Assembly (NCBI GenBank): GCA_023301745.1
Contig: JALZVW010000083.1
Location: forward strand, 1-52,543
Source: Arenicella sp.
Lineage (GTDB): Bacteria > Pseudomonadota > Gammaproteobacteria > Arenicellales > Arenicellaceae
Reading direction: 5' to 3'
DNA length: 52,543 bases
The position numbers and the translations under genes were made by a program. Shown here in pieces: positions 35,348 to 48,474 of this stretch. The notes beneath the pieces were generated by a model. The model searched no databases, was not told the origin of the DNA, and worked only from the letters and a program-made list of their open reading frames with translations. Every line of letters starts with the position of its first letter. The stretch's first letter is position 1.

Positions 35348-36064
35348 CTACTCTAGACCTTCGTCCAGAGCAGAGATGATCGTTGTTAAGGCGCTGCTCA
35401 TTAATACCGTCGCATGGTCGGCTGCGGTCTGAGGCTCATTGGCAACAATCGCGTCGTATATCACTTTATGTTCGGCGTGCTTGGCGGCGCGGACACCTGT
35501 TCGCATATTGGTAAATCGAATGCTGACTCGAAGGGTTGTGTCAATAATACGGCCTAACTGCGTAAAGAAACGGTTTTCACTGGCTTCTAAAATACTTAAA
35601 TGAAAAGCGATATCAGATTCAAGTGGGTCATCTAGGCCGGTTTCGGCCTTTTTCATTCGATCAAGTGCGATACCGATTTTGGCAATTTTCTCGATATTCT
35701 GGCGTTGTGCGGCGAGCATCGCGGCTTCTGGCTCTACAGCGACACGCAGCTCGGCAAATTCACGCAATAATTCAAGTGAAGGGTTTGAATCACGCATCCA
35801 GCGTAAGACATCGGCATCGAATAAATTCCATTCAGTTTCAGGTAGTACTCTTATTCCCTGTCGGGCTCTGGATGTGATGAGCCCTTTGGCCGCGAGAGAT
35901 TTAACTGCTTCACGTGCGGCGCTTCGACTGACCTGAAGTTGTTCGCACAATACAGCCTCACTAGGTACTGGGTTATGGTCACCGTACTGGCCGTTGATGA
36001 TCGCACTTCCTAAGGTCTCAGCAACTTGCTGAGTGAGGTTCATGCTTCGGTTTAGCCCTTTCAT
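35348..36064 (-). CDS. FadR/GntR-type regulator with FCD domain, DgoR-like
   Basis: A 238-residue regulator. The wHTH (about 10-75) shows QVAETLGSAIINGQYG, PSEAVLCEQLQVSRSAAREAVKSL and TSRARQGIRVLP; WNLFDADVLRWM follows, a block shared with DgoR. The FCD ligand domain spans about 90-225 with metal-ligand candidates in the DIAFHLSILEAS helix (Asp, His) and His residues in AAKHAEHK and AADHATV. By similarity and neighbourhood it probably represses dgoD and/or the alpha-galactosidase gene and is released by galactonate or a related acid. Divergent from the alpha-galactosidase gene. Confidence 0.85.
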   Translation of the reverse strand: MKGLNRSMNLTQQVAETLGSAIINGQYGDHNPVPSEAVLCEQLQVSRSAAREAVKSLAAKGLITSRARQGIRVLPETEWNLFDADVLRWMRDSNPSLELLREFAELRVAVEPEAAMLAAQRQNIEKIAKIGIALDRMKKAETGLDDPLESDIAFHLSILEASENRFFTQLGRIIDTTLRVSIRFTNMRTGVRAAKHAEHKVIYDAIVANEPQTAADHATVLMSSALTTIISALDEGLE

Positions 36065-36311
36065 GTTATAGCTCAGCTGGTTAAAATGTTACTTTACTGA
36101 TTTTATTGTATATAAATCTGATAATTGCCGCAATTTGATCCTGTAAAATACCATGGTCACTTTTGATAATGGGCTGTCTCATACCCAGCACTGAGAATTA
36201 CTGAGACCACTGAGCAAGCCTTAGACGGCAACCCTGCTAGCTCGTAAAACCAATAAAAGTGAGTTGCGATTACCCATCAGCAAGGCCCCTAAATACCTCG
36301 AAGGAATATTA

Positions 36312-38564
36312 ATGACTGCGAAAATCATTGTTACAAACGACTCATCAGCAATGCCCGTATTTGCCCTTTCAAACTCGTCGGTAAGTTATATTTTCAGGGT
36401 CTCGATCGAGGGCTTACTAGAGCACCTACATTTTGGCGGGCGAGTAGAACCAAGCAGTTGCTACCCGAGTGAACCAAAGCGGTTGCATAGAGGCTGTGTT
36501 GTTGAGTTTCAAAACTCACCACATTATAACCTCTCGGATGTGCCACAAGAATATCCAGTTTTTGGTACTAGCGATAACCGCCTACCCGCATTCCACGCCA
36601 TTAATGCTGATGGTAATAGCACTCAGGTCTTTCGGTATAAGAGTTATCAAATACTGGATAACAAGCCAGACTTAGAAGGGCTGCCAAGTGCGCGTGGTGG
36701 AGCGAGCAAAAGTTTAGTTGTTACGGTGATTGATGACATTAGTAATTTGCGTGTCGAGCTTAGTTACACCGTTTACGATGATCATAATGTTGTCGCTCGA
36801 TCTAGTCGTATTATTAACGACGGCGCTAATCGAGTGACTCTATTAAGAGCAATGAGTTCGTGTTTAGACTTACCTGCTGCGGACTATGATCTGCTGCACT
36901 TAGGCGGTACTTGGGCGAGAGAATTCAATCAAGACCGCTTGCCAGTTCCCAAAGGTCGTTTTGTTTTAGAATCGGCAACTGGCGCAAGTGGCAATGTGCA
37001 CAACCCGTTTATCTCAGTAATGGATAAAGGCACCACAGAGCGACATGGCCGAGTGTTTAGTTCCGCTTTTGTTTACAGCGGTAATTTTTCGATCAATGTA
37101 GAAAAGGGAGAGTTCGATTCTGTGCGGGTGACCACGGGCATCAACCCGTTCAATTTTCAATGGCAATTAGATTCTGGCGAATCGTTTACAACGCCCGAAT
37201 CGCTGCAGGTTTTTAGCAATGCGGGCTTAAATGGAATGAGTCAGACTTGGCATAGCTTCATTAAAGATAAACTAAGTCCAGAGAATTACCAAGGCGTGCC
37301 GCGACCGACGTATTTAAATTCGTGGGAGGCCGCCTATTTTGATATTGATGAAGACAAAGTACTAGAGCTTGCTGATCGAACAAAGTCACTAGGTTTGGAA
37401 ATGTTAGTGGTCGATGATGGTTGGTTTGAGGGCCGAAATGACGATACGACATCATTAGGAGACTGGTACTCAGATAAGCGAAAATTCCCAAATGGTATTG
37501 AAGCCGTGGCCGCAAGAGTCAAGCAGAAAGGGCTGAAATTTGGCCTTTGGTATGATCTGGAAATGGTTAGTCCAGAGAGTAACTTGTTGCTTGATCACCC
37601 AGATTGGATTATTGGCGTGCCTCACCGTGTTAACTCAAAAGGTCGTAATCAATTAACCTTAGATTTATCGCGTAGCGATGTGCAAAACTACCTATTTGCT
37701 CGTATCGATCAAATTTTGAGCTCGGGGAGTATCGATTATATTAAGTGGGATATGAATCGAACCATGACAGAGATAGGTAGCTCAAGATTGAGTGTGGATC
37801 GCCAGCTCGAAACGCCACACCGTTACATGTTAGGCCTATATTGTTTGATCAAAAAAATCGTCACCAAATACCCACAAGTGTTGTTTGAAAACTGTGCGGC
37901 TGGGGGTAACCGTTTTGACTTAGGTATGTTGCACTATATGTCACAAGGATGGGTTAGTGACATGTCTGAACCGATTGGCCGTTTACCTATTACCAATGGT
38001 GCGTCACATATTTTCCCTCCTTGCGTACAGGCATCTTATATCTGCCCAGTGCCGAATCACCTAAATGGTCGCCAAGTGTCACTTAAAACTCGTGTTGACG
38101 TTGGCTTTTTCTCTGCGGCACGTGGTTTGTCATTGAGCGCAGAAGACATTGATAAAGATTTTGAGGCATTAAAACGCTATGTTCAATTTTATAAAGACAC
38201 GGCTGATGATGTGGTAAATGGGCAGTTCTATCGCGTGCAATATCATGATAATCACGTTGTCTGGCAACTTAATTCAGCGAACAGTAAGACCGTATATTTA
38301 GGCTATTTTCATATCTTGTCGGCGGTGAATTTACCGTTTAGAAAAGCACATCTAGTGAACCTGGACCCCGAGTCTCAATATTTATTGACCAGTGATTTTG
38401 GCGTTACTAATGAGCAAGTCGATAGTCATCTTTCGTTTGGCGGCGACGCTTTAATGAATATGGGTTTAGATTTGCCGTATGTGTCTGCATTACAAGCTGA
38501 AGGTAAGGACTACCTAGAAACAGGCGACTTTACCTCTCGTCTTTTTGTCTTCAAAAAACGCTAA
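36312..38564 (+). CDS. GH36 alpha-galactosidase
   Basis: 750 residues from the ATG at 36312 (MTAKIIVTN), with AAGGA six bases upstream; the longer start at 36264 is unsupported. No signal peptide, so it acts inside the cell on imported alpha-galactosides such as melibiose or raffinose. The N-terminal beta domain (about 1-320) is followed by the TIM barrel with RPTYLNSWEAAYFDID, LVVDDGWFEGR, GLKFGLWYDLEMVSP, the nucleophile aspartate in YIKWDMNR (near residue 480) and the acid/base aspartate in WVSDMSEPI (near 549). The latter replaces the usual SDNTD by SDMSE, a group-specific change. The galactose released could feed galactonate metabolism through dgoD. Confidence 0.93.
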   Translation: MTAKIIVTNDSSAMPVFALSNSSVSYIFRVSIEGLLEHLHFGGRVEPSSCYPSEPKRLHRGCVVEFQNSPHYNLSDVPQEYPVFGTSDNRLPAFHAINADGNSTQVFRYKSYQILDNKPDLEGLPSARGGASKSLVVTVIDDISNLRVELSYTVYDDHNVVARSSRIINDGANRVTLLRAMSSCLDLPAADYDLLHLGGTWAREFNQDRLPVPKGRFVLESATGASGNVHNPFISVMDKGTTERHGRVFSSAFVYSGNFSINVEKGEFDSVRVTTGINPFNFQWQLDSGESFTTPESLQVFSNAGLNGMSQTWHSFIKDKLSPENYQGVPRPTYLNSWEAAYFDIDEDKVLELADRTKSLGLEMLVVDDGWFEGRNDDTTSLGDWYSDKRKFPNGIEAVAARVKQKGLKFGLWYDLEMVSPESNLLLDHPDWIIGVPHRVNSKGRNQLTLDLSRSDVQNYLFARIDQILSSGSIDYIKWDMNRTMTEIGSSRLSVDRQLETPHRYMLGLYCLIKKIVTKYPQVLFENCAAGGNRFDLGMLHYMSQGWVSDMSEPIGRLPITNGASHIFPPCVQASYICPVPNHLNGRQVSLKTRVDVGFFSAARGLSLSAEDIDKDFEALKRYVQFYKDTADDVVNGQFYRVQYHDNHVVWQLNSANSKTVYLGYFHILSAVNLPFRKAHLVNLDPESQYLLTSDFGVTNEQVDSHLSFGGDALMNMGLDLPYVSALQAEGKDYLETGDFTSRLFVFKKR

Positions 38565-38710
38565 ACTCCTGCCCGCTAACGAGGTCTGTAAAACGACTCA
38601 ATAATCTAGAAAACCAAATCATGGTGTCGGTGTATACTCTTTCTATTGGGGTCGATGAAGCGGGTGACTGGACATCGTATACCTGTGACACATCAACATT
38701 AAACTAGATT

Positions 38711-40012
38711 ATGAACCAAAAATTTGTACGTGACGCTTTGCGTAAATTGCTGTGGCTGTTTGTGCCGCTAATGAGTTTAGTCGTCAGCCAGAACTTCGCG
38801 CAAGAGTCATCCGAGCGCTCCTTGCCGGGCTCTTCTACTGCTAGTCAGTCGTTCGAAGATTACTATGATCAAGTCTATCAAATAAAGGTGGTATCACCGA
38901 AAGCTGGCAGTAAATCATCAATAGGGTCGGGTTTTCAAGTGTCGAGCGATGGACTGATTGTTACTAACTATCATGTTGTCTCATCGTTTGTGCAAGCACC
39001 TGAACTGAATAGAATTGAATATCAGTCTCATACTGGTCAGAAGGGCGTGCTTGAGTTAGTGGATTTTGATGTTATTCATGACCTTGCGGTGCTAAAGCTC
39101 TCTTCACCAAGCCAGCGTTTTCTTCGTTTTAGCGATACTCTGCTCAATAAGGGCGAAACAGTGTATGCCCTTGGCAACCCTAGAGATTTTGGCACAAGCC
39201 TGGTAAAAGGGCCGAACAATGGCATGGTTGAACATAGCTACAACGATCAAATTTTATTTTCGGGTAGCTTGAACCCAGGAATGAGCGGCGGGCCAGCCGT
39301 CAATGCGCTTGGCCAGGTCGTTGGAGTTAACGTCGCGACCGCCGGTAGTCAACTGAGTTTTTTGGTACCGGCTAATAATGCCGTCGAGTTAGTTAATGCC
39401 CGCCGGGTGGTGATGCCCAGCGACTACCAAAAGGAAATTGCGCGCCAAATAAAACAGTGGCAACGCCCGCGTATTCAGGAGCTTATTGATCAAGAGTGGG
39501 CCATCGAGGAGTTTGCTGGAGAGAACTTGTTCGGTGAAATCCGCAAGGACTTTCAATGCTGGGGGCAAACCAACGAGTCGAACAAAAAACGTAATATTGC
39601 TTCGATATCAAAAAGCTGCCGAGCTGGGAACTCTCTGTTCTTAGATGGTACGGCGAGTGCCGGAGAACTGTATTTTAGCTTTGATCACGCATCGGCAGTA
39701 ACACTAAGTGCTTTGCAGTTTACAAATTCTATTAGGCCGTGGATGGGTGCAAATAATAGCTCTAATTATGAACACTCAAGCAACTACCAATGTCATGTCG
39801 ACTTTATTGAGGGTAGCGAAAGCACTGCAACGTATGTTCGAGCGACGACCTGTGTAAGAGCTTTTAAGAAGCTCGCAGGTTTGTACGATTCACTGCTCAT
39901 GATTGAGCGCGTAGATGGTTTGCAACAATTCGTAAGTCATCTTTCTATCTCAGCCATCGAACGAGATCAAATCACCTCGCTGAACCGAAAATTTATGGAG
40001 AAATCTCTATGA
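38711..40012 (+). CDS. Exported trypsin-like serine protease with a novel C-terminal domain
   Basis: A 433-residue protein. Signal peptide at about 1-33 (LLWLFVPLMSLVVSQNFAQ). The S1C-type protease domain (about 45-235) has the full triad: His in VTNYHVV, Asp in IHDLAVLKL, Ser in NPGMSGGPAV. In place of the PDZ domains of DegP it has a helical linker (about 240-275) and a C-terminal domain (about 276-433) with four cysteines (in FQCW, SKSC, YQCHV and TTCV) that could form two disulfides. Its stop overlaps the start of the FHA gene by four bases (ATGA), so the two are co-translated. Confidence 0.88.
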   Translation: MNQKFVRDALRKLLWLFVPLMSLVVSQNFAQESSERSLPGSSTASQSFEDYYDQVYQIKVVSPKAGSKSSIGSGFQVSSDGLIVTNYHVVSSFVQAPELNRIEYQSHTGQKGVLELVDFDVIHDLAVLKLSSPSQRFLRFSDTLLNKGETVYALGNPRDFGTSLVKGPNNGMVEHSYNDQILFSGSLNPGMSGGPAVNALGQVVGVNVATAGSQLSFLVPANNAVELVNARRVVMPSDYQKEIARQIKQWQRPRIQELIDQEWAIEEFAGENLFGEIRKDFQCWGQTNESNKKRNIASISKSCRAGNSLFLDGTASAGELYFSFDHASAVTLSALQFTNSIRPWMGANNSSNYEHSSNYQCHVDFIEGSESTATYVRATTCVRAFKKLAGLYDSLLMIERVDGLQQFVSHLSISAIERDQITSLNRKFMEKSL

Positions 40013-40959
40013 AAAGCCTCATTGTAGAAATCTCTAACAGAGAAGGTGTTCGCATTGAACGTATTGCGCTGGACGGTAATAGTTTGTCTATTGGTCGTGC
40101 ATGGGACAGTGATTTAATAGTACAAGATAAATTCGTAGACCCCGATCATCTGGGCATAAGCCTCGGAGATGATGACCAAGTTTTCATCACTGATTTAGAG
40201 ACTAAAAATGGTTCTCGGCTTGACGGTAAGAAGCTAAATGCCGCGGCTAAAGCCTACCGACTAGGTGACGTGCTGATAATCGGTGACACGCATATTAAGA
40301 TGTTTGATGCTCAGGCTTCTGTTGGCCCTGCCGCTATTAGGTCTAATTGGTTTTTGCTGGCGGAGCGGTTAAGTAGTTTTAAAGCGATATTAATATTGAC
40401 CGGGTTAGCGATATTGTTGCAGGTAACTCAAATTTATAGTCGTTCGGGTGAGCCATTAAAGTTTGAAGACTTGATGGTCTCGGCGGTTGGGGTGTTGATG
40501 CTATTATTTTTATGGAGCTTATTGTTAGGCCTTATCGCTAAACTAATCCGAGGCGAGACTAATATAAAGCCTCTTTGGGTGCTGGGGTGTTTGGCGGTGG
40601 TTATTGCCAGTATTGTTTCGTTGATATTACTTGTTATAAGGTTTAACTTCCAAGATATTAGCTTGGGCGAGAGTGTCTCAGTTGTTGTATTTGGTGTGTT
40701 TTTTACGTGTCTACTCGCGGGTGTTTTTAGCTACGTCACCCACATTCAAAGCCGAAGTAAATGGCTTTGTTCGTTTATATTGGTAGTAAGTTTGTATGGT
40801 GTTAGCAAGTCTGACGAGTATCTCAAGGAACCCCATCAGACCTGGACGTCATCGACTAAGACCGAGCAAGCAACACTGCCGCCTGCCTTTTTGCTTCGCG
40901 AAGGGGTGTCTATCGATGATTACCTGAGTGATACAGAGGCGTTATTTGATTTTCAATAA
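40009..40959 (+). CDS. FHA-domain polytopic membrane protein, partner of the protease
   Basis: A 316-residue protein. The N-terminal FHA domain (about 1-105) keeps SIGRAWDSDL and TKNGSRLDG, but the usual S-x-x-H phosphothreonine motif is DPDH: the serine is replaced by aspartate. Five hydrophobic segments follow (near 125-145, 150-172, 186-210, 222-245, 253-270). With a cytoplasmic FHA domain, five helices would leave the C-terminal tail of about 45 residues (TWTSSTKTEQATLPPAF and on) in the periplasm, where the co-encoded protease resides. No Ser/Thr kinase or phosphatase gene is nearby. Confidence 0.85.
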   Translation: MKSLIVEISNREGVRIERIALDGNSLSIGRAWDSDLIVQDKFVDPDHLGISLGDDDQVFITDLETKNGSRLDGKKLNAAAKAYRLGDVLIIGDTHIKMFDAQASVGPAAIRSNWFLLAERLSSFKAILILTGLAILLQVTQIYSRSGEPLKFEDLMVSAVGVLMLLFLWSLLLGLIAKLIRGETNIKPLWVLGCLAVVIASIVSLILLVIRFNFQDISLGESVSVVVFGVFFTCLLAGVFSYVTHIQSRSKWLCSFILVVSLYGVSKSDEYLKEPHQTWTSSTKTEQATLPPAFLLREGVSIDDYLSDTEALFDFQ

Positions 40960-40985
40960 GCTGGGATAACAAGATGCCGGCTTTT
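40959..40985 (+). terminator. Short terminator after the FHA gene
   Basis: AGCTGG (40959-40964) pairs with CCGGCT (40977-40982, one G-T pair) and is followed by TTT. The loop is 12 bases. It separates the FHA gene from the convergent LuxR-type gene. Confidence 0.5.
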
Positions 40986-41002
40986 CTGCTCACTGAGTTT
41001 TG

Positions 41003-42688
41003 TTAGTGCCGCGAAGTTGTGCTGGTCAGTCTTTCGATTAGGGCTTTGGTTGTGACTTCTGGCTTCGTATGTATCAGTAGTTGGCCCGCATCATCAATCA
41101 CTATTAGGTGAATGTTGTCATGCGCTTGTGCCAGATTATGAATTGATGTGATCGAGCTAATGCGGTCTTGGTTGCCATGTATTAAGCTAATTCCACACTG
41201 CACTCTCTCGACATAATGCGATAGGTCTTCGGCCAATGCTAGCGCCTCGTTTGTGTAGGCTATATAACCATTCTGCGCAGCGAATCGGTAGCCAATGCAA
41301 AGGCGTTGAAATACTTCTTCGTGGTTAGTTGTGGCCAAATCCACCGACGAATTTTGATAGTTCATATCAAGCAGTTTTCGAATGCCATCACTCTCGATAA
41401 TTGCTTGTGCGGTTCGCGTTAGCGCAGGCAAAAATTTTGGAAAGTACCTAGCCGTTCGAACAATTGCACGAGCCCCTTTGGGCATTGACGCTATTTGATT
41501 TTCGCTGTCCAATGGAGTCATGCCCGCAATGTTAACGACTAACTCTATACGAGCTGGATGGAGTGCAGCCGTTGCATAAGCATGCGAAGCACCCGACATC
41601 TGGCCAAGCAAAATAACCGAGTCTAGTTTTAAATGATCGAGTAGCGCGATTAAATCGGTCGCCGAATTTTTGAGTAAATCATCGTTGTTAAGAGAGGCCG
41701 AAGAGCCTCCGAACCCAGCTCGACTTGGGCCGATTATTCGATACGCCTGATGACCTAGAGAATCGTGCATGACATCTGGAAGCTGGGGGTCATGAAGCGC
41801 TCCGTGGAGTACCACGATGACTTTTTTATGTTTCGCGCCGGTGTCGTAGTAGGCGTATTTTCGTCCATCGGGCAACGTTAGCGAATAGTTTGGGCACTTT
41901 GAGTTAGACCACTTTTCTTGATCACGATGGCTTTGCGCAAAGTTCAAACTCGTCAACAGCCGCATTAAACGAGGCTGCGAATGTGTTTGGGTTTTTTTTA
42001 GCAATGACTTAGTGTGTTGACGAACCGTGCCTAATGCTCGGCTTTCGCGTTCGGCGATATCACGTACTGAATGCCCTTGATATAAAAGCTCGGCTACAGC
42101 GCATTCTGTGTTGGTCAGCGAATACATCGATTTTAAGATCGTTTGTAGACCTTGATCCCAAGCGTGCCCAGTGAAATCTATAATAATGATCCCTGTGTCG
42201 TTTAATTTTTTTAGCCGCATTAGTGCCGGTTGATTGTTCGGTAACAGAATGACTAATTCCATTGTTTGAGTCGTGCCAGCCTGAGCAAGCACATCGAATA
42301 CGATCGCTTTGGCTTTTGGATGCACTAAATCTTGTATAAGTTGCCCTCTTTGCGTAATCGAAAATAACTTTTTAGCGTCATTATTGAATTCCAGTACCCG
42401 GCCGCTAAGAGTGATTGCGATTGATGGCCTGTTGCTCACGCCGATAAAATTGTCTAGGGTCAAATTTTCAAGTGCGTGGTCAAGGCCGGATCTCTCTAAA
42501 ATTTGAAATGCGCGATCAAAGTGATGCGACAAATGCTCATACGTTTCGGGGGCAAGGCTGACAAGTTCCTCATTTTGGTGTAAATACTCTTCCAATAACT
42601 CCGCGAATGAATTGAAATTATTTGGGTTGAGTACAAGGTCGTACAGGGCGTCAATAAGTTGATCTTGTCGAGTTTTTTGATTAGGCAT
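41003..42688 (-). CDS. PAS / LuxR-HTH / degenerate alpha-beta-hydrolase fusion regulator
   Basis: A 561-residue protein with domains in an unusual order. Residues 1-85 are helical; about 88-175 is PAS-like (PSIAITLSGRVLEFNNDAKK); 188-245 is a LuxR-type HTH (LTNTECAVAELLYQGHSVRD, TVRQHTKSLLKKT); about 265-555 is an alpha/beta hydrolase (VIVVLHGALHD, GPSRAGFGGSS, IHGNQDR). In the nucleophile elbow LLGQMSGASHA, aligned to G-x-S-x-G, Met364 takes the serine position, and the catalytic histidine position in DDAGQLLIH (normally AGHxxxxE) is Gln536; Asp508 remains. The hydrolase part is therefore probably a ligand-binding sensor rather than an enzyme. Target genes are unknown; the choice-of-anchor I gene lies upstream on the same strand, 118 bases away. 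Confidence 0.85.
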   Translation of the reverse strand: MPNQKTRQDQLIDALYDLVLNPNNFNSFAELLEEYLHQNEELVSLAPETYEHLSHHFDRAFQILERSGLDHALENLTLDNFIGVSNRPSIAITLSGRVLEFNNDAKKLFSITQRGQLIQDLVHPKAKAIVFDVLAQAGTTQTMELVILLPNNQPALMRLKKLNDTGIIIIDFTGHAWDQGLQTILKSMYSLTNTECAVAELLYQGHSVRDIAERESRALGTVRQHTKSLLKKTQTHSQPRLMRLLTSLNFAQSHRDQEKWSNSKCPNYSLTLPDGRKYAYYDTGAKHKKVIVVLHGALHDPQLPDVMHDSLGHQAYRIIGPSRAGFGGSSASLNNDDLLKNSATDLIALLDHLKLDSVILLGQMSGASHAYATAALHPARIELVVNIAGMTPLDSENQIASMPKGARAIVRTARYFPKFLPALTRTAQAIIESDGIRKLLDMNYQNSSVDLATTNHEEVFQRLCIGYRFAAQNGYIAYTNEALALAEDLSHYVERVQCGISLIHGNQDRISSITSIHNLAQAHDNIHLIVIDDAGQLLIHTKPEVTTKALIERLTSTTSRH

Positions 42689-42806
42689 TTTTCTGTGTCA
42701 TTGCTATATAACAATGACGTTCTTCTCCGCCCAGAATCGAGCAATATTGATTCTATAGCCTATACGTCTGGACTCGATTTAATGTGATTTAATCACAATA
42801 AATTGC

Positions 42807-44381
42807 TTATCTGTCTTTTTGCTCAGTTTGATTGACTTGGTATATTGATATAGTACCGCTCACTTCATTTGCTGATACCAGCAGTGGCTGACCGTTAGGG
42901 CTATCGCTTGCGTTGATAAAAACGAGGCTCTCGGGAGCTATGTCGCCAGCGTTGGGGTCGCTAGGTTCTAGGTAAGGGCTAATGGTATTTAGGTAGTCTA
43001 CAAAAAACGCCTTTTCTGGCACTGTGATGTTGTAAACCATGATCCCGCCGGTGCGTTCAAGGCCAATAAATGCATAAGTTGATTTACCCACTTTACCTAT
43101 CGTCAGCGCTTCTGGCTCAGGGCCTTTGTCGTCGCTACTCAGATCTCTGTTGTTAAAAAGTCTAGGGTAATCACGTGCGGTAATTTTTTCAAACGCTGAA
43201 CCACTGTCAAAAACTTGAACGATATTTTGGTCCCAGATTGAAAACGATCGAGAGCCAAATGAATATAGGGTGTCACTAAGCCCGTTTTTATCAGAATCGG
43301 CGCCAATGGTTGAGACGTTTAGCTGGCCAAGTTGCTTATCGCCTTGTAGGTTTTGTTCTTTTAGTGAAGAGTCGAGCGCTAAGTTTTTGACTCTTTTTTG
43401 TTCCGAGAAGCCAGAGTAATCACGTGGATCTCCTTCATTCGCTGTGACGATGAAGCTTTGGCCATTTACCTTGTAACTCGCTATCGAATCGGGCTGATAC
43501 ATTCCTCTAAGCGGCCAGGTTTTAATGTTTATCTTATTATCTTTATCACTCGCATCTAAGCCATTTTCAGTCAGCGAATGGTCTTTATAGCCCAGTGCGT
43601 AGAGTTTTTCTACACGGCCCCGTTTTAAGCTGACTTCGGCCAAGGCGTTGTTTTCCTGAAGGCTCACCCATGCAGTCTCTGAGTTGGCGGTGATGCTTAT
43701 GTACTCCGGTTCAAGGTCTTGAGCAATAGACGCATTTTTACCAAATATTCGAATCTCGGGATCGATATTATTATCAGTGAATTGATTAAAGTTTACAGAA
43801 CGAACCGACGCCGGCTCTAACGCTCTTATGTCGCCTTTGATATCGATAATGGTTATTGAACCTTCTGGGTCAACAGTGTAATCGTCGTTAGGTTCCCCCT
43901 CGTTTGCACTGACAATGTACTGACCATTTGGTGAAAATGTCACCATGTCAGGCATGGCCCCTGCTTGAAATTGATTGAGCCGCACTCCGTCGGTGCTATA
44001 GACCAGAATCGAGCCGTTTTCTTGAGGATTTTTGCCCGAGATTGCGATGGCAACGAGTTGGTTTTTTACCGCGACACTATTTATTGTCCCGAACTCCTTA
44101 AGATCAATCCTGAAGGCCAATTGTGGAGATTCAGGTTCTGATAACGATATTACATCAATAGTACGTGCATGATTGTTGGTTGCAAACGCGCGTTGCGTTT
44201 TCGGATCAAAACTGACAATTTCAGCCGCGCCGCTGTCATAGGGCCCCGACTTATAGGTGCTCAACGGGCTCAGGCTAATGCGCTCGCCTAGGGACTTATG
44301 CTCGCCATGAGCGACCGCAAGAGAGATAGATAATGGTGATATCAGCAAGCCAGCAACGGCCAATGATGAGCTTAAGTTCAT
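42807..44381 (-). CDS. Choice-of-anchor I family beta-propeller protein, exported
   Basis: A 524-residue protein with a signal peptide (LAVAGLLISPLSISLAVAHG). The series GAAEIVSFDPKTQRAFATN, INSVAVKNQLVAIAISG, GAMPDMVTFSPNGQYIVSANEGEP, GSITIIDI, EYISITANSETAWVSLQENNA, and SFIVTANEGDPRDY is the choice-of-anchor I pattern, a seven-bladed propeller related to phytase-like and alkaline-phosphatase-associated proteins. The ending lacks a visible sorting anchor, so it may be soluble in the periplasm or secreted. Substrate unknown. Same strand as the LuxR-fusion gene but separated from it by 118 bases. Confidence 0.85.
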   Translation of the reverse strand: MNLSSSLAVAGLLISPLSISLAVAHGEHKSLGERISLSPLSTYKSGPYDSGAAEIVSFDPKTQRAFATNNHARTIDVISLSEPESPQLAFRIDLKEFGTINSVAVKNQLVAIAISGKNPQENGSILVYSTDGVRLNQFQAGAMPDMVTFSPNGQYIVSANEGEPNDDYTVDPEGSITIIDIKGDIRALEPASVRSVNFNQFTDNNIDPEIRIFGKNASIAQDLEPEYISITANSETAWVSLQENNALAEVSLKRGRVEKLYALGYKDHSLTENGLDASDKDNKINIKTWPLRGMYQPDSIASYKVNGQSFIVTANEGDPRDYSGFSEQKRVKNLALDSSLKEQNLQGDKQLGQLNVSTIGADSDKNGLSDTLYSFGSRSFSIWDQNIVQVFDSGSAFEKITARDYPRLFNNRDLSSDDKGPEPEALTIGKVGKSTYAFIGLERTGGIMVYNITVPEKAFFVDYLNTISPYLEPSDPNAGDIAPESLVFINASDSPNGQPLLVSANEVSGTISIYQVNQTEQKDR

Positions 44382-44659
44382 GATTTAGTATTTTTATTAA
44401 GATCCAGTGAGCTAGTTTACATCATTCGTTTTACATATCCGTCAAACGGCATTCACTATTCGAAAAACTGGTTACAGTGAGGTTATTTAGCCCTAAGTCA
44501 GAGGCTTTCAAAAGGCTCATTAGGGCGAATTTTACTTAGCCAGTTTGAATAACAAAATACGTAGTGTTTTATCGGCTCGAGGCATATAGTTATGCTTTGT
44601 TCATACAGTCTGAGGTTAGTAATAAGTGCCTACAGTCTTATAATATTGTCGTAGGCGCC

Positions 44660-46015
44660 GTGTCCGTAACCTTAGAATTAAAGTCCTTAATAAAATTAGC
44701 CACACCGGTGTCTCTTGCACAGTTGTCGTTGGTGGGTATGTCGGCCACTGATGTGTTGATTGCAGGGCGAGCCAGTACACTTGATTTGGCGGGCATGAAC
44801 TTAGGTGTTAATACTTGGAACATGATTATTTTGTTTTTCATGGGTATCGGTTTTGCCACTCAACCTCTGGTTGCAAAGCGTTTTGGAGCGCTGGACGATC
44901 GGGGTGTAAAGCATCAATTGCATCAATCTATATGGATGTGCCTGAGTTTAGGTGTCGTGGCTATGCTGGTCGTGTGGGCCGCGGCATGGGGCTTCAAGTT
45001 CGTTAACTTTGAGCCTGAAATGTCGCGTATTGCACGTGATTTTTTATTCGCGATTAGTCTATGTGCAATACCCATGAGCTTGATGCCTGCCGTGCGAGGC
45101 ACCTTAGAAGGCATGAGCATGACCCGGGTGGTTTTCTTGGTTAATTTTTCCGCGTTTCTTATTAATATTCCGCTTGATTATGTTTTGGTGAACGGCCTAT
45201 ACGGATTGCCTAAATTCGGTGGCGTTGGCTGTGCTTGGGCAACCGTGATTCTAATGTGGGCCGCATTTTTAATTAGTCTTTGGGTGCTTAAGTCACACCA
45301 TGGTATTAAACAAAAAAAGCTATTTTCTGATTTTGAAAAACCAAATACTAAGACTATTCGCGCGACCTTCAAGTTGGGCTTGCCAATCGGTATGTCTATT
45401 GTCATTGAACTCGCAATGTTCTCTGGCGCCGGAATAATGATTGCTAAATTTGGTGTAATAGAAGCCGGCGCGCACGCGGTTGCGATTATCGTCGCGTCGC
45501 TCAGTTTTATGTTGTACACAGGCTTAGGGCAGGGCGTTACAATTCGTGCATCTCAATTACTCGGCGCATCATTGCCTGACCAAGCATGGTCCACGGTCAA
45601 GATAGGCACTCTATTTAATCTGGCGGTCTCTGTTATATTTTGTTTGGCCTATCTGGTCTTCACTGAACCACTGATTCGACTCTTTACGAGTGATCCGCAA
45701 GTAATTGAACTTGCCGTCGTGTTGCTATACTTTGGCGCGGCTTTTCAAATCGTGGACTGCCTGCAAGTGGCGATGGTCTGTGCGCTACGTGCCTATCACG
45801 ATACCGCTAGCCCGCCGAAATATCAGCTATTAGCCTTTTGGGGTTTTGGTTTGCCTATTGGTATTGGTTTGTCATTTTACGGCTGGTGGCCGGGTCTAGA
45901 GGGAGCGAAGGGTATGTGGTTTGCGATGGTAGTGAGTTTGTCCTTAGTGGGTCTATTGTTATTGCGTCGATTGGCCCAACACATGCGTGAATTTAATGCG
46001 CAACAGCAAGTTTAG
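44660..46015 (+). CDS. MATE family efflux transporter (NorM-like)
   Basis: 451 residues from the GTG at 44660 (MSVTLELKSLIKLATPVSLAQ), close to the NorM length of about 457; the GTG at 44564 would add 32 residues without family similarity. Twelve helices in two six-helix halves. The typical blocks are LIKLATPVSLAQLSLVGMSATDVLIAG, LGVNTWNMIILFFMGIGFATQPLVA, LPKFGGVGCAWATVILMW and LGQGVTIRASQLLG. It exports cationic drugs or metabolites driven by Na+ or H+. The small membrane protein gene is 68 bases downstream on the same strand. Confidence 0.9.
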   Translation: MSVTLELKSLIKLATPVSLAQLSLVGMSATDVLIAGRASTLDLAGMNLGVNTWNMIILFFMGIGFATQPLVAKRFGALDDRGVKHQLHQSIWMCLSLGVVAMLVVWAAAWGFKFVNFEPEMSRIARDFLFAISLCAIPMSLMPAVRGTLEGMSMTRVVFLVNFSAFLINIPLDYVLVNGLYGLPKFGGVGCAWATVILMWAAFLISLWVLKSHHGIKQKKLFSDFEKPNTKTIRATFKLGLPIGMSIVIELAMFSGAGIMIAKFGVIEAGAHAVAIIVASLSFMLYTGLGQGVTIRASQLLGASLPDQAWSTVKIGTLFNLAVSVIFCLAYLVFTEPLIRLFTSDPQVIELAVVLLYFGAAFQIVDCLQVAMVCALRAYHDTASPPKYQLLAFWGFGLPIGIGLSFYGWWPGLEGAKGMWFAMVVSLSLVGLLLLRRLAQHMREFNAQQQV

Positions 46016-46083
46016 CTTAGGGTATAGTCGATATTTACTCTAGATAAGACATCACGCTTATTGGTTAACAGAGAGAAAAAAAG

Positions 46084-46464
46084 ATGGGGATAGTTGTTTG
46101 TATTAGTATGTTGTTGGGCTTAACGGTGTTGCAGCCGACACCATGGAACCGTTCTGCACGAGTAAAGCAGCCGACTCAATTTGTTATGTTTACCGCCTTT
46201 TCTCTGCTGAGTTTAGGGCTGTGGAACGTTATTTATGGTTACTTTACGATCAGTGGTTTTTGGATGTGGGCTTCGTTAATTTCTGGCTCGGCGATGGTGT
46301 TAGCCAGCTTCTATGTGTTTATCGAGCAAGGCTCCGAGAGTTCTGATATTGATCATAGCAATGTGCGTAAAGCAACTACGATTGTCTTAGCGCTTAGCTT
46401 TTTAGTCTACGCGGTTACTCTAATTCAATTAAACCTGGGCTATCCTATCCTTGGTCAGTCGTAG
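46084..46464 (+). CDS. Small membrane protein, four helices
   Basis: A 126-residue protein with hydrophobic segments near 2-18, 32-52, 56-78 and 100-120, and a polar loop with ESSDIDHSN. GAGAG lies a few bases before the ATG. The pattern ISMLLGLTVLQPTPWNRSARVKQ at the N-terminus is not one I can assign. It may be co-transcribed with the MATE gene. A hairpin terminator and a tandem repeat follow it. Confidence 0.65.
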   Translation: MGIVVCISMLLGLTVLQPTPWNRSARVKQPTQFVMFTAFSLLSLGLWNVIYGYFTISGFWMWASLISGSAMVLASFYVFIEQGSESSDIDHSNVRKATTIVLALSFLVYAVTLIQLNLGYPILGQS

Positions 46465-46486
46465 AAACAGGGTTAGTCAGAAAAAA

Positions 46487-46517
46487 GGGCAACGATAAAA
46501 TTTCGTCACCCTCTTTT
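46487..46517 (+). terminator. Imperfect hairpin with T run
   Basis: GGGCAACGA pairs with TCGTCACCC apart from a two-base internal mismatch, and CTCTTTT follows. It lies 22 bases after the small membrane protein gene and leads straight into the 13-bp repeat array. Confidence 0.5.
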
Positions 46518-46592
46518 AGCCTTAGTTTTTAGCCTTAGTTTATGGCCTTAGTTTATGGCCTTAGTTTATGGCCTTAGTTTATGGCGTTAGTA
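46518..46592. repeat. 13-bp tandem repeat, about 5.8 copies
   Basis: Units begin at 46518, 46531, 46544, 46557, 46570 and 46583 (last one partial). The consensus is GGCCTTAGTTTAT; the first two units begin AG and the first ends in TTTTT. Three central units are identical, which implies recent expansion. It sits between convergent genes and ends four bases before the stop of the DUF885 gene. Confidence 0.93.
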
Positions 46593-46596
46593 CTGG

Positions 46597-48474
46597 CTAG
46601 CCCGCTAACTTTGAGCTTATCCACGAATCAACTTTGGCTTCGAGAACGTTCAAAGGCAGAGGCCCGTATTTAAGAATTTCATCGTGGTATTCGCGAATAT
46701 CAAACTTCTCACCCAACTGTTCTTTAGCGCCCGACCGTAACTCAAGAATTTTTAGCATTCCGATTTTGTAAGCGGTTGCTTGCGACGGCATTACAATATG
46801 TCGCTCAACCATCTTAACGCCATCAGAAACAGCATTAGGTGTGTTGTCAGTGTAGTAGGCAATGCCTTGCTCACGTGTCCACTTCTTTGAATGGATGCCC
46901 GTGTCTACGACTAAGCGACATGCGCGCCATAGCTCCATCGCTAAGCGACCAAAATCAGAATAAGGGTCTTGATAAGCGCCAAATTCTTTTGGGAGGTATT
47001 CAGAGTACAAACCCCAGCCTTCTGTATAGGCGGTATAACCACCAAAGCGGCGAAATTTAGGAACCCCTGTTAACTCTTGTTGAATCGCCAGCTGCATATG
47101 GTGGCCGGGAATACCTTCGTGATAGGCCAGTGCTTCCATTTGATAGCTTGGCATTGCTTTCATGTCATAAAGGTTAGCGTAATACAAACCAGGTCGTGTA
47201 CCGTCTTCAGATGGGCGTTGGTAAAAGGCTTTGCCTGCGGACTGCTCGCGAAAAGCTTCAACGGCTTTGACATTCAAGTCGGCTTTAGGCTTGGTAATGA
47301 ACATGGCGTCAAGTTTGCCTTTCATGTCATCGATTAGCGTTGTTGCCTCGCTCAGATATCGATCTTTGCCAGCTTGGTCCGAGTCATAATAAAAGCGTTC
47401 GTCATTGCGCATAAACTGCATAAACGCGTTTAAATCGCCGTCAAATTTCACCGCATCTTTGATCGCTCGCATTTCACCGTGAATACGTTCGACTTCTTTT
47501 AAGCCAATTTCATGAATTTGATCCGAGCTAAGGTCGGTGGTGGTGGTGCGCTTAAGTGCAACGTTAAAAAATTCATCGCCGTCTTTCCATTTCCACACGC
47601 CATCGTCGGTCGTCGCTTTAGTTTCGAGCTTAGTCAAATGGGCGACTAACTTCTCATAGGCGGGTTTTACTGAATTGCTAAGCGCGGCTGTTGCTGCTTC
47701 CATCAACGCTGTTTTTTCAGCGTCACTGACATTGCTCGACTCCTTAGTAGCGAGCGCATCGACCTTCTTGCTGAAGTCTGCTAGTAACGCGCTTGGTTCG
47801 CCTTCGGTGAATGGTGCGCCAGTGATGATGTTGTTGCTATCGCGAATAACATGCGGGAAGACAAACTTTGGAGGAATGATATTGGCGGCCGTACGAGCAT
47901 CAATATTGGTGATTAGTTGATCAAACAAGCTAGGAATACCGTTCAAGCGTGCAATGTAATTTTCGGCATCCTTGATGTCATCAATACGATGTTGATTAAT
48001 CAGCAACGAGACGACACCTGAATGGCGACCAAACATTTGATTGACTGGGTAGTTATAAAGGCGCCATTTATTGTCGGCGATGTCTTCTTCCATTGACTGA
48101 ATCAATAGGTCGTAGCTCAGTGTTGTCGCGTTGTCGAGCTTCGAGCGATCAATGGTTTTGAGTTCAGCTAGTTGTTTCTTAGTGATTTCAATTGATTCAT
48201 TTGCGTGAGCTTCGGATAGATCGTTCCACTCATTAGCTCGATCTTTACGGCCCAGGCGGGTCAGTGTTTCGGGGCTTCGAGCAACAGACTCTTCGAATAC
48301 GCGCTCAAAGAATGCGTTGGCACGCTCAGATTCTGACGTCTGTGGCGCAGCGGATACTTCCTGGGCAACGCTTGGATTTGATTCAGGGGTTTGGCTAGAA
48401 ATTTGGTCTGCTGACTGATTGCAGGCCGATAGCAAAAATGCAGCGCTAAGGGCTGCCGAGTACGATTTAAGCAC
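46597..48474 (-). CDS. DUF885 family lipoprotein, putative zinc peptidase
   Basis: A 625-residue protein. The lipobox LLSAC at about 14-18 predicts lipid attachment after export; no aspartate follows the cysteine (CNQS), so the outer membrane is likely. After a low-complexity linker (to about 50) the DUF885 domain fills the rest, with the zinc motif YHEGIPGHHMQ near residue 450 and the YTEGWGLYSEYL block, both as in the family, then KIGMLKILELR. DUF885 proteins look like metallopeptidases, but few have been assayed. Confidence 0.92.
   Translation of the reverse strand: MLKSYSAALSAAFLLSACNQSADQISSQTPESNPSVAQEVSAAPQTSESERANAFFERVFEESVARSPETLTRLGRKDRANEWNDLSEAHANESIEITKKQLAELKTIDRSKLDNATTLSYDLLIQSMEEDIADNKWRLYNYPVNQMFGRHSGVVSLLINQHRIDDIKDAENYIARLNGIPSLFDQLITNIDARTAANIIPPKFVFPHVIRDSNNIITGAPFTEGEPSALLADFSKKVDALATKESSNVSDAEKTALMEAATAALSNSVKPAYEKLVAHLTKLETKATTDDGVWKWKDGDEFFNVALKRTTTTDLSSDQIHEIGLKEVERIHGEMRAIKDAVKFDGDLNAFMQFMRNDERFYYDSDQAGKDRYLSEATTLIDDMKGKLDAMFITKPKADLNVKAVEAFREQSAGKAFYQRPSEDGTRPGLYYANLYDMKAMPSYQMEALAYHEGIPGHHMQLAIQQELTGVPKFRRFGGYTAYTEGWGLYSEYLPKEFGAYQDPYSDFGRLAMELWRACRLVVDTGIHSKKWTREQGIAYYTDNTPNAVSDGVKMVERHIVMPSQATAYKIGMLKILELRSGAKEQLGEKFDIREYHDEILKYGPLPLNVLEAKVDSWISSKLAG

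Follow-up and report, generated by a model that had tools for sequence, protein, structure and literature searches.

Contig JALZVW010000083.1 of an Arenicella sp. genome (GCA_023301745.1; its 52,543 nucleotides are called the window hereafter) encodes a regulator in which a LuxR-type helix-turn-helix (HTH) is followed by an alpha/beta hydrolase domain that has lost its catalytic serine and histidine. The protein is probably a one-component regulator in which a pocket inherited from the hydrolase binds, but does not turn over, a small molecule and so controls the HTH. Ligand sensing is the most economical explanation of a dead hydrolase joined to an HTH, and the repeated loss of the triad among related fusions suggests that the former catalytic pocket now detects a small molecule.

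Gene and domain order

The minus-strand reading frame was open throughout, encoding 561 residues plus a stop (Table 1). The regulator gene has no clear Shine-Dalgarno sequence, but an in-frame TGA 12 bp upstream fixes its ATG as the start; a choice-of-anchor I gene lies 118 bp upstream on the same strand.

Table 1. Position of the regulator gene, its domains and the catalytic positions in the window.
Feature	Position	Strand	Basis
Whole gene, PAS-like + LuxR HTH + pseudo alpha/beta hydrolase, 561 aa	41003..42688	-	ORF, Pfam
N-terminal helices and probable PAS domain, residues 1-180	42149..42688	-	Weak Pfam PAS match; topology in models
LuxR/GerE helix-turn-helix, mid-chain, residues 190-244	41957..42121	-	PF00196 above cut-off
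Alpha/beta hydrolase fold with helical lid, residues 264-556	41021..41899	-	Pfam, structure comparison
Met364, nucleophile position	41597..41599	-	phmmer, alignment, orthologues
Asp508, catalytic acid position, kept	41165..41167	-	Alignment, orthologues
Gln536, catalytic His position	41081..41083	-	Alignment, orthologues

Pfam placed residues 190-244 in the LuxR/GerE HTH family (31.4 bits against a cut-off of 23.5) and matched Abhydrolase_1 to residues 290-543 (49 bits, cut-off 25.8). With both domains above their cut-offs, the mid-chain HTH and full alpha/beta hydrolase that the original prediction had read from the 561-residue chain were confirmed. The PAS-like domain that it had placed ahead of them fared less clearly: residues ~76-174 showed, in both structure models described below, the order expected of a PAS fold (two strands, helices, three strands) at low confidence, but the PAS match scored 13.7 bits, under the cut-off of 22.6, so that a PAS-like N-terminus is plausible and unproven. 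In a relative, L071, PAS_8 reached 19.3 bits. The autoinducer-binding domain of LuxR quorum-sensing receptors (PF03472) had no match in the window protein in a Pfam-A search up to an E-value of 0.1.

The AlphaFold model of the window protein, built from a 17-sequence alignment, had a mean pLDDT of 59.6, the HTH and a large part of the hydrolase core being modelled better. Its best match with VIA-align was 3kxp (Z 23.7, rmsd 3.0 over 222 residues), many esterases came next with Z 21-23, and the matches included the BphD structures H265Q (3v1k) and S112A (2puh). The model of L115, a relative from the second Arenicella lineage described below, reached a pLDDT of 78.1 and matched 9wlv with Z 29.1 and an rmsd of 2.8 over 279 residues. 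Pfam and model comparison together show that the C-terminal domain belongs to the alpha/beta hydrolase fold superfamily.

Loss of the catalytic residues

When the window protein was aligned (MAFFT) with 20 stand-alone hydrolases from other genomes, Met364, Asp508 and Gln536 fell in the columns that hold Ser, Asp and His in all 20 of these controls. phmmer set Gln-Met-Ser-Gly-Ala opposite Trp-Ser-Gly-Gly-Gly of 9wlv, i.e. Met opposite Ser, and in the predicted model residue 364 lies between strand 358-363 and helix 366-376, where the nucleophile elbow is located. The elbow reads Gly362-Gln363-Met364-Ser365-Gly366 and the His region Ala534-Gly535-Gln536. Of the features of an active serine hydrolase, the Ser nucleophile (GxSxG) and the His are absent and the catalytic acid is present, and alignment, phmmer and model therefore bear out what had been predicted for all three positions. 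Because nucleophile and His are both lost, turnover by the usual mechanism is impossible.

The neighbouring Ser365 was considered as the true nucleophile, and rejected: position 365 is Ser, Ala or Gly across three orthologues, and the dead-site reading stands. The domain match and the residue losses go far beyond chance, and they recur in the orthologues.

Copies and gene neighbourhood in the genus Arenicella

A profile search found the architecture at 34 places in 17 of the 18 genomes of the genus. None of the 32 genus fusions that were aligned had both Ser and His, and 30 lacked both residues. The window protein has two orthologues, L011 at 46% identity and L012 at 34%; L011 occupies the same gene neighbourhood as the window regulator, with most neighbours 71-90% identical. 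Met364 was found in all three proteins and Gln536 in two, L012 having a His.

In the second lineage, which lies on the relA side (n=26), position 364 was Val or Ile in every member and position 536 was Glu in 25 and Asp in one, while Asp508 and Arg510 were invariant and the former His site carried a conserved motif, GYSEHxYY. The altered site is thus itself conserved in this lineage, which suits a new function better than decay.

The window's genome holds a second fusion (L101:1461-3122; 29% identity over the matched part, elbow GTVLG) between malate dehydrogenase-like and relA/spoT-like genes, these neighbours being named by eye. In several further genus genomes, too, a relA-like sequence adjoins the fusion. 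One genus copy (L015/L056, G003:C15) has an in-frame TAA and is perhaps a pseudogene or an assembly error.

Around the regulator (window positions 35348-48474), the genes for a MATE transporter and a DUF885 protein, frequently joined by one for a choice-of-anchor I protein, make up a neighbourhood conserved in the genus, in which the regulator is accessory and its slot is filled differently in other genomes. G007, which has the closest MATE (87% identity), carries an FHA gene in the slot instead. Regulation of the neighbouring MATE gene was considered and found unsupported, since MATE is present in 18/18 genus genomes and the regulator was found in that slot only in the window's genome and G012. 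Across the window and the genus neighbourhoods, the adjoining genes gave no pointer to a ligand and no firm target. At window positions 38711-40959, the gene for a trypsin-like peptidase shares four bases with that for an FHA-domain membrane protein, and the two probably form one operon.

Relatives beyond the genus

In samples drawn from the class and from the phylum, the architecture was spread through other Pseudomonadota: 39 of the 398 genomes of the phylum sample had a match at E <= 1e-45, and a few of these matches covered the hydrolase alone. Among 70 aligned fusions, nine kept Ser-Asp-His, a count that rises to 11 when Asp is accepted as a nucleophile alongside His. Neither Ser nor His was present in 40, and all patterns of loss were seen, with Ser kept and His gone, His kept and Ser gone, or both gone. 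The complete triad was missing from 61/70 fusions versus 0/20 stand-alone hydrolases (Fisher p 2e-13, related sequences not being independent). The survey of homologues of the same domain order that the original prediction had called for thus favoured a dead site throughout the genus, but turned up intact triads outside it, in more distant fusions that have no known activity.

Treating triad loss as irreversible, 11 losses were counted on the best tree of the hydrolase domain, five when branches below 80% support were collapsed, and three below 95%. Losses nested among intact relatives were seen in L149 (His to Phe), which lies within the intact L135/L139/L140 group (support 99/88), and in L072/L129 (Val, Ala) beside the intact L071/L073/L074. 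Triad loss is the rule in LuxR-HTH/hydrolase fusions and apparently came about several times over, at least three to five times if supported branches alone are counted.

The set of 70 was collected with profiles holding mostly dead members. A profile made from intact triads only recovered largely the same proteins plus six further loci, four of which had a readable catalytic region, including L172 with an intact triad (SSNG, Asp, GGH) and L182 with Cys and His. The finding of L172 in this way means that intact triads are slightly commoner than the count suggests; the proportion of dead fusions is approximate, and the pattern read from the alignments stands.

In L152, L157 and L190:4752-6389 (the last with GYDAG and a His), the nucleophile position holds Asp, the residue found there in dehalogenases and epoxide hydrolases; the elbow of L182 is GFCGG. 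These Asp- and Cys-nucleophile fusions are possibly active with other chemistry.

Such fusions are also encoded on plasmids of Aliiroseovarius, Paracoccus, Agrobacterium, Ruegeria sp. TM1040 and Pseudosulfitobacter, where they are annotated as LuxR regulator only or alpha/beta hydrolase only. Full-length matches on plasmids shared at best 21-24% identity with the window protein. Database entries WP_260519347.1 (Aliiroseovarius), WP_011536845.1 (Ruegeria sp. TM1040) and WP_069044247.1 (Agrobacterium sp. RAC06) resemble it in domain order and length, but are distant in sequence and have other residues at the catalytic positions; the Ruegeria fusion has Asp at the nucleophile position and keeps the His. 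Genes for a VWA-domain protein and hypothetical proteins lie divergently or nearby in L189, L190 and L191 (plasmids of Agrobacterium sp. RAC06, Ruegeria sp. TM1040 and Pseudosulfitobacter), and this VWA-protein gene group is a possible conserved target of the plasmid fusions in three genera.

Purifying selection on the hydrolase domain

Close pairs of the relA-side lineage had a dN of 0.06-0.09 in the hydrolase domain at a dS > 1, near saturation; where it could be estimated, dN/dS was roughly 0.05 and well under 0.1, a rough figure given the dS near saturation. In the window lineage itself synonymous sites were saturated. The low dN/dS of the close pairs indicates strong purifying selection, and the dead hydrolase domain is therefore constrained. 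The lid was no more conserved than the remainder of the hydrolase core, and these data consequently do not single out the pocket.

Proposed function and alternatives

Architecture, fold, residue loss, recurrence and purifying selection were computed, and it is from these that I infer ligand binding, a ligand class, allostery and target promoters. The regulator would be soluble and cytoplasmic, its hydrolase domain keeping fold, lid and Asp without nucleophile and His. A small molecule, probably resembling the ester, lactone or acyl compound of the enzyme ancestor, would occupy the pocket of the former active site beneath the lid; this would move the central LuxR HTH, or change how it pairs, and so alter DNA binding. 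The PAS-like N-terminus may supply a second input or a dimer interface.

A serious rival, though a rather unlikely one, is that the dead hydrolase serves as a protein-protein or dimerisation module which passes on a partner's signal or merely stabilises the protein, with no small-molecule ligand. Hydrolase folds act as interaction modules in neuroligins and NDRG, a partner-binding role would leave the same traces as ligand sensing, and it is the lid, no more conserved than the core, that makes this rival serious. The active-site positions do not drift freely, however: the Met fixed in three orthologues and the new polar motif fixed in 26 relatives both point at the pocket.

That the domain is still enzymatic, through another nucleophile or a His-independent mechanism, in what would be an enzyme-regulator fusion, is improbable. 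Some hydrolase-fold proteins do use Asp or Cys nucleophiles, Asp508 is kept, and the nine fusions with Ser/Asp/His are joined by two more with Asp and His, but the window protein itself has Met and Gln at the decisive positions and its orthologues vary at 365. About as improbable is a decaying relic under relaxed selection, which would suit the regulator's low identity to its syntenic orthologue (46%, against 71-90% for most neighbours) and the G003 copy with its in-frame stop, but not a reading frame that stays open for 290 residues and still encodes the fold, a dN/dS that lies well under 1 when close relatives are compared in pairs, or altered catalytic positions that are themselves conserved.

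The ligand-sensor reading, which the original prediction had also proposed, is thus retained for a non-catalytic hydrolase that is fused to a LuxR HTH, under selection and part of a family-wide loss of the triad; the comparison with RsbQ, KAI2 and D14 that came with it is not (see below). Only tentatively can it be extended to the proposal that hydrolase-LuxR HTH receptors form a widespread class of small-molecule sensors, which may have arisen repeatedly from enzyme-regulator fusions by triad loss, with lineage-specific residues for different ligands, possibly marine bacterial signals.

Significance and comparison with known systems

No bacterial sensor is commoner than the one-component regulator, and the step of turning a dead enzyme into a receptor is known but has rarely been documented in bacteria. 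The window protein would be a one-component regulator with an enzyme-derived sensor, of a known kind and in a new variant. A single architecture here holds intact, half-lost and fully lost catalytic sites, so that the path from enzyme to receptor that has been proposed for plant hormone receptors could be traced and tested in bacteria. If ligands were found, these proteins would add a class of receptors that could serve as biosensors.

No published study of the LuxR-hydrolase fusion architecture was found in the literature covered, mostly that outside subscription journals, and the word "hydrolase" is absent from the main text of a survey of 991 actinobacterial LuxR proteins (PMC3466318). With LuxR/GerE regulators (PF00196), especially the PAS-LuxR type, the window protein shares the GerE HTH, above cut-off, and may share an upstream PAS domain; it differs from PAS-LuxR regulators in that its HTH is mid-chain and followed by ~290 residues of hydrolase fold, and no autoinducer-binding domain was found. 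Proteins of the esterase, haloperoxidase and C-C hydrolase type (3kxp, 9wlv, 1va4, BphD) are alike in fold, lid position and catalytic Asp, but the window protein has Met in place of their Ser and Gln in place of their His; the BphD crystal mutants are changed at these same two catalytic positions.

RsbQ, KAI2 and D14, the last represented by its orthologue DAD2, likewise use a hydrolase fold in signalling, but they are separate proteins with a triad, whereas the window protein is a fusion with Met364 and Gln536. In KAI2 and RsbQ the triad is intact. DAD2 has the whole triad and needs it (PMC3531792), so the analogy drawn in the original prediction is loose and was set aside for a better precedent. 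A pseudoprotease, CspC, is a proposed bile-acid sensor (PMC6636752). The better precedent is the gibberellin receptor GID1, which arose from a lipase that lost its catalytic His (PMC3531792). Like the window protein it is a hydrolase fold without the His, turned receptor as the window protein probably was, but GID1 retains the Ser, falls within the hormone-sensitive lipase branch, and is a plant protein without a DNA-binding domain.
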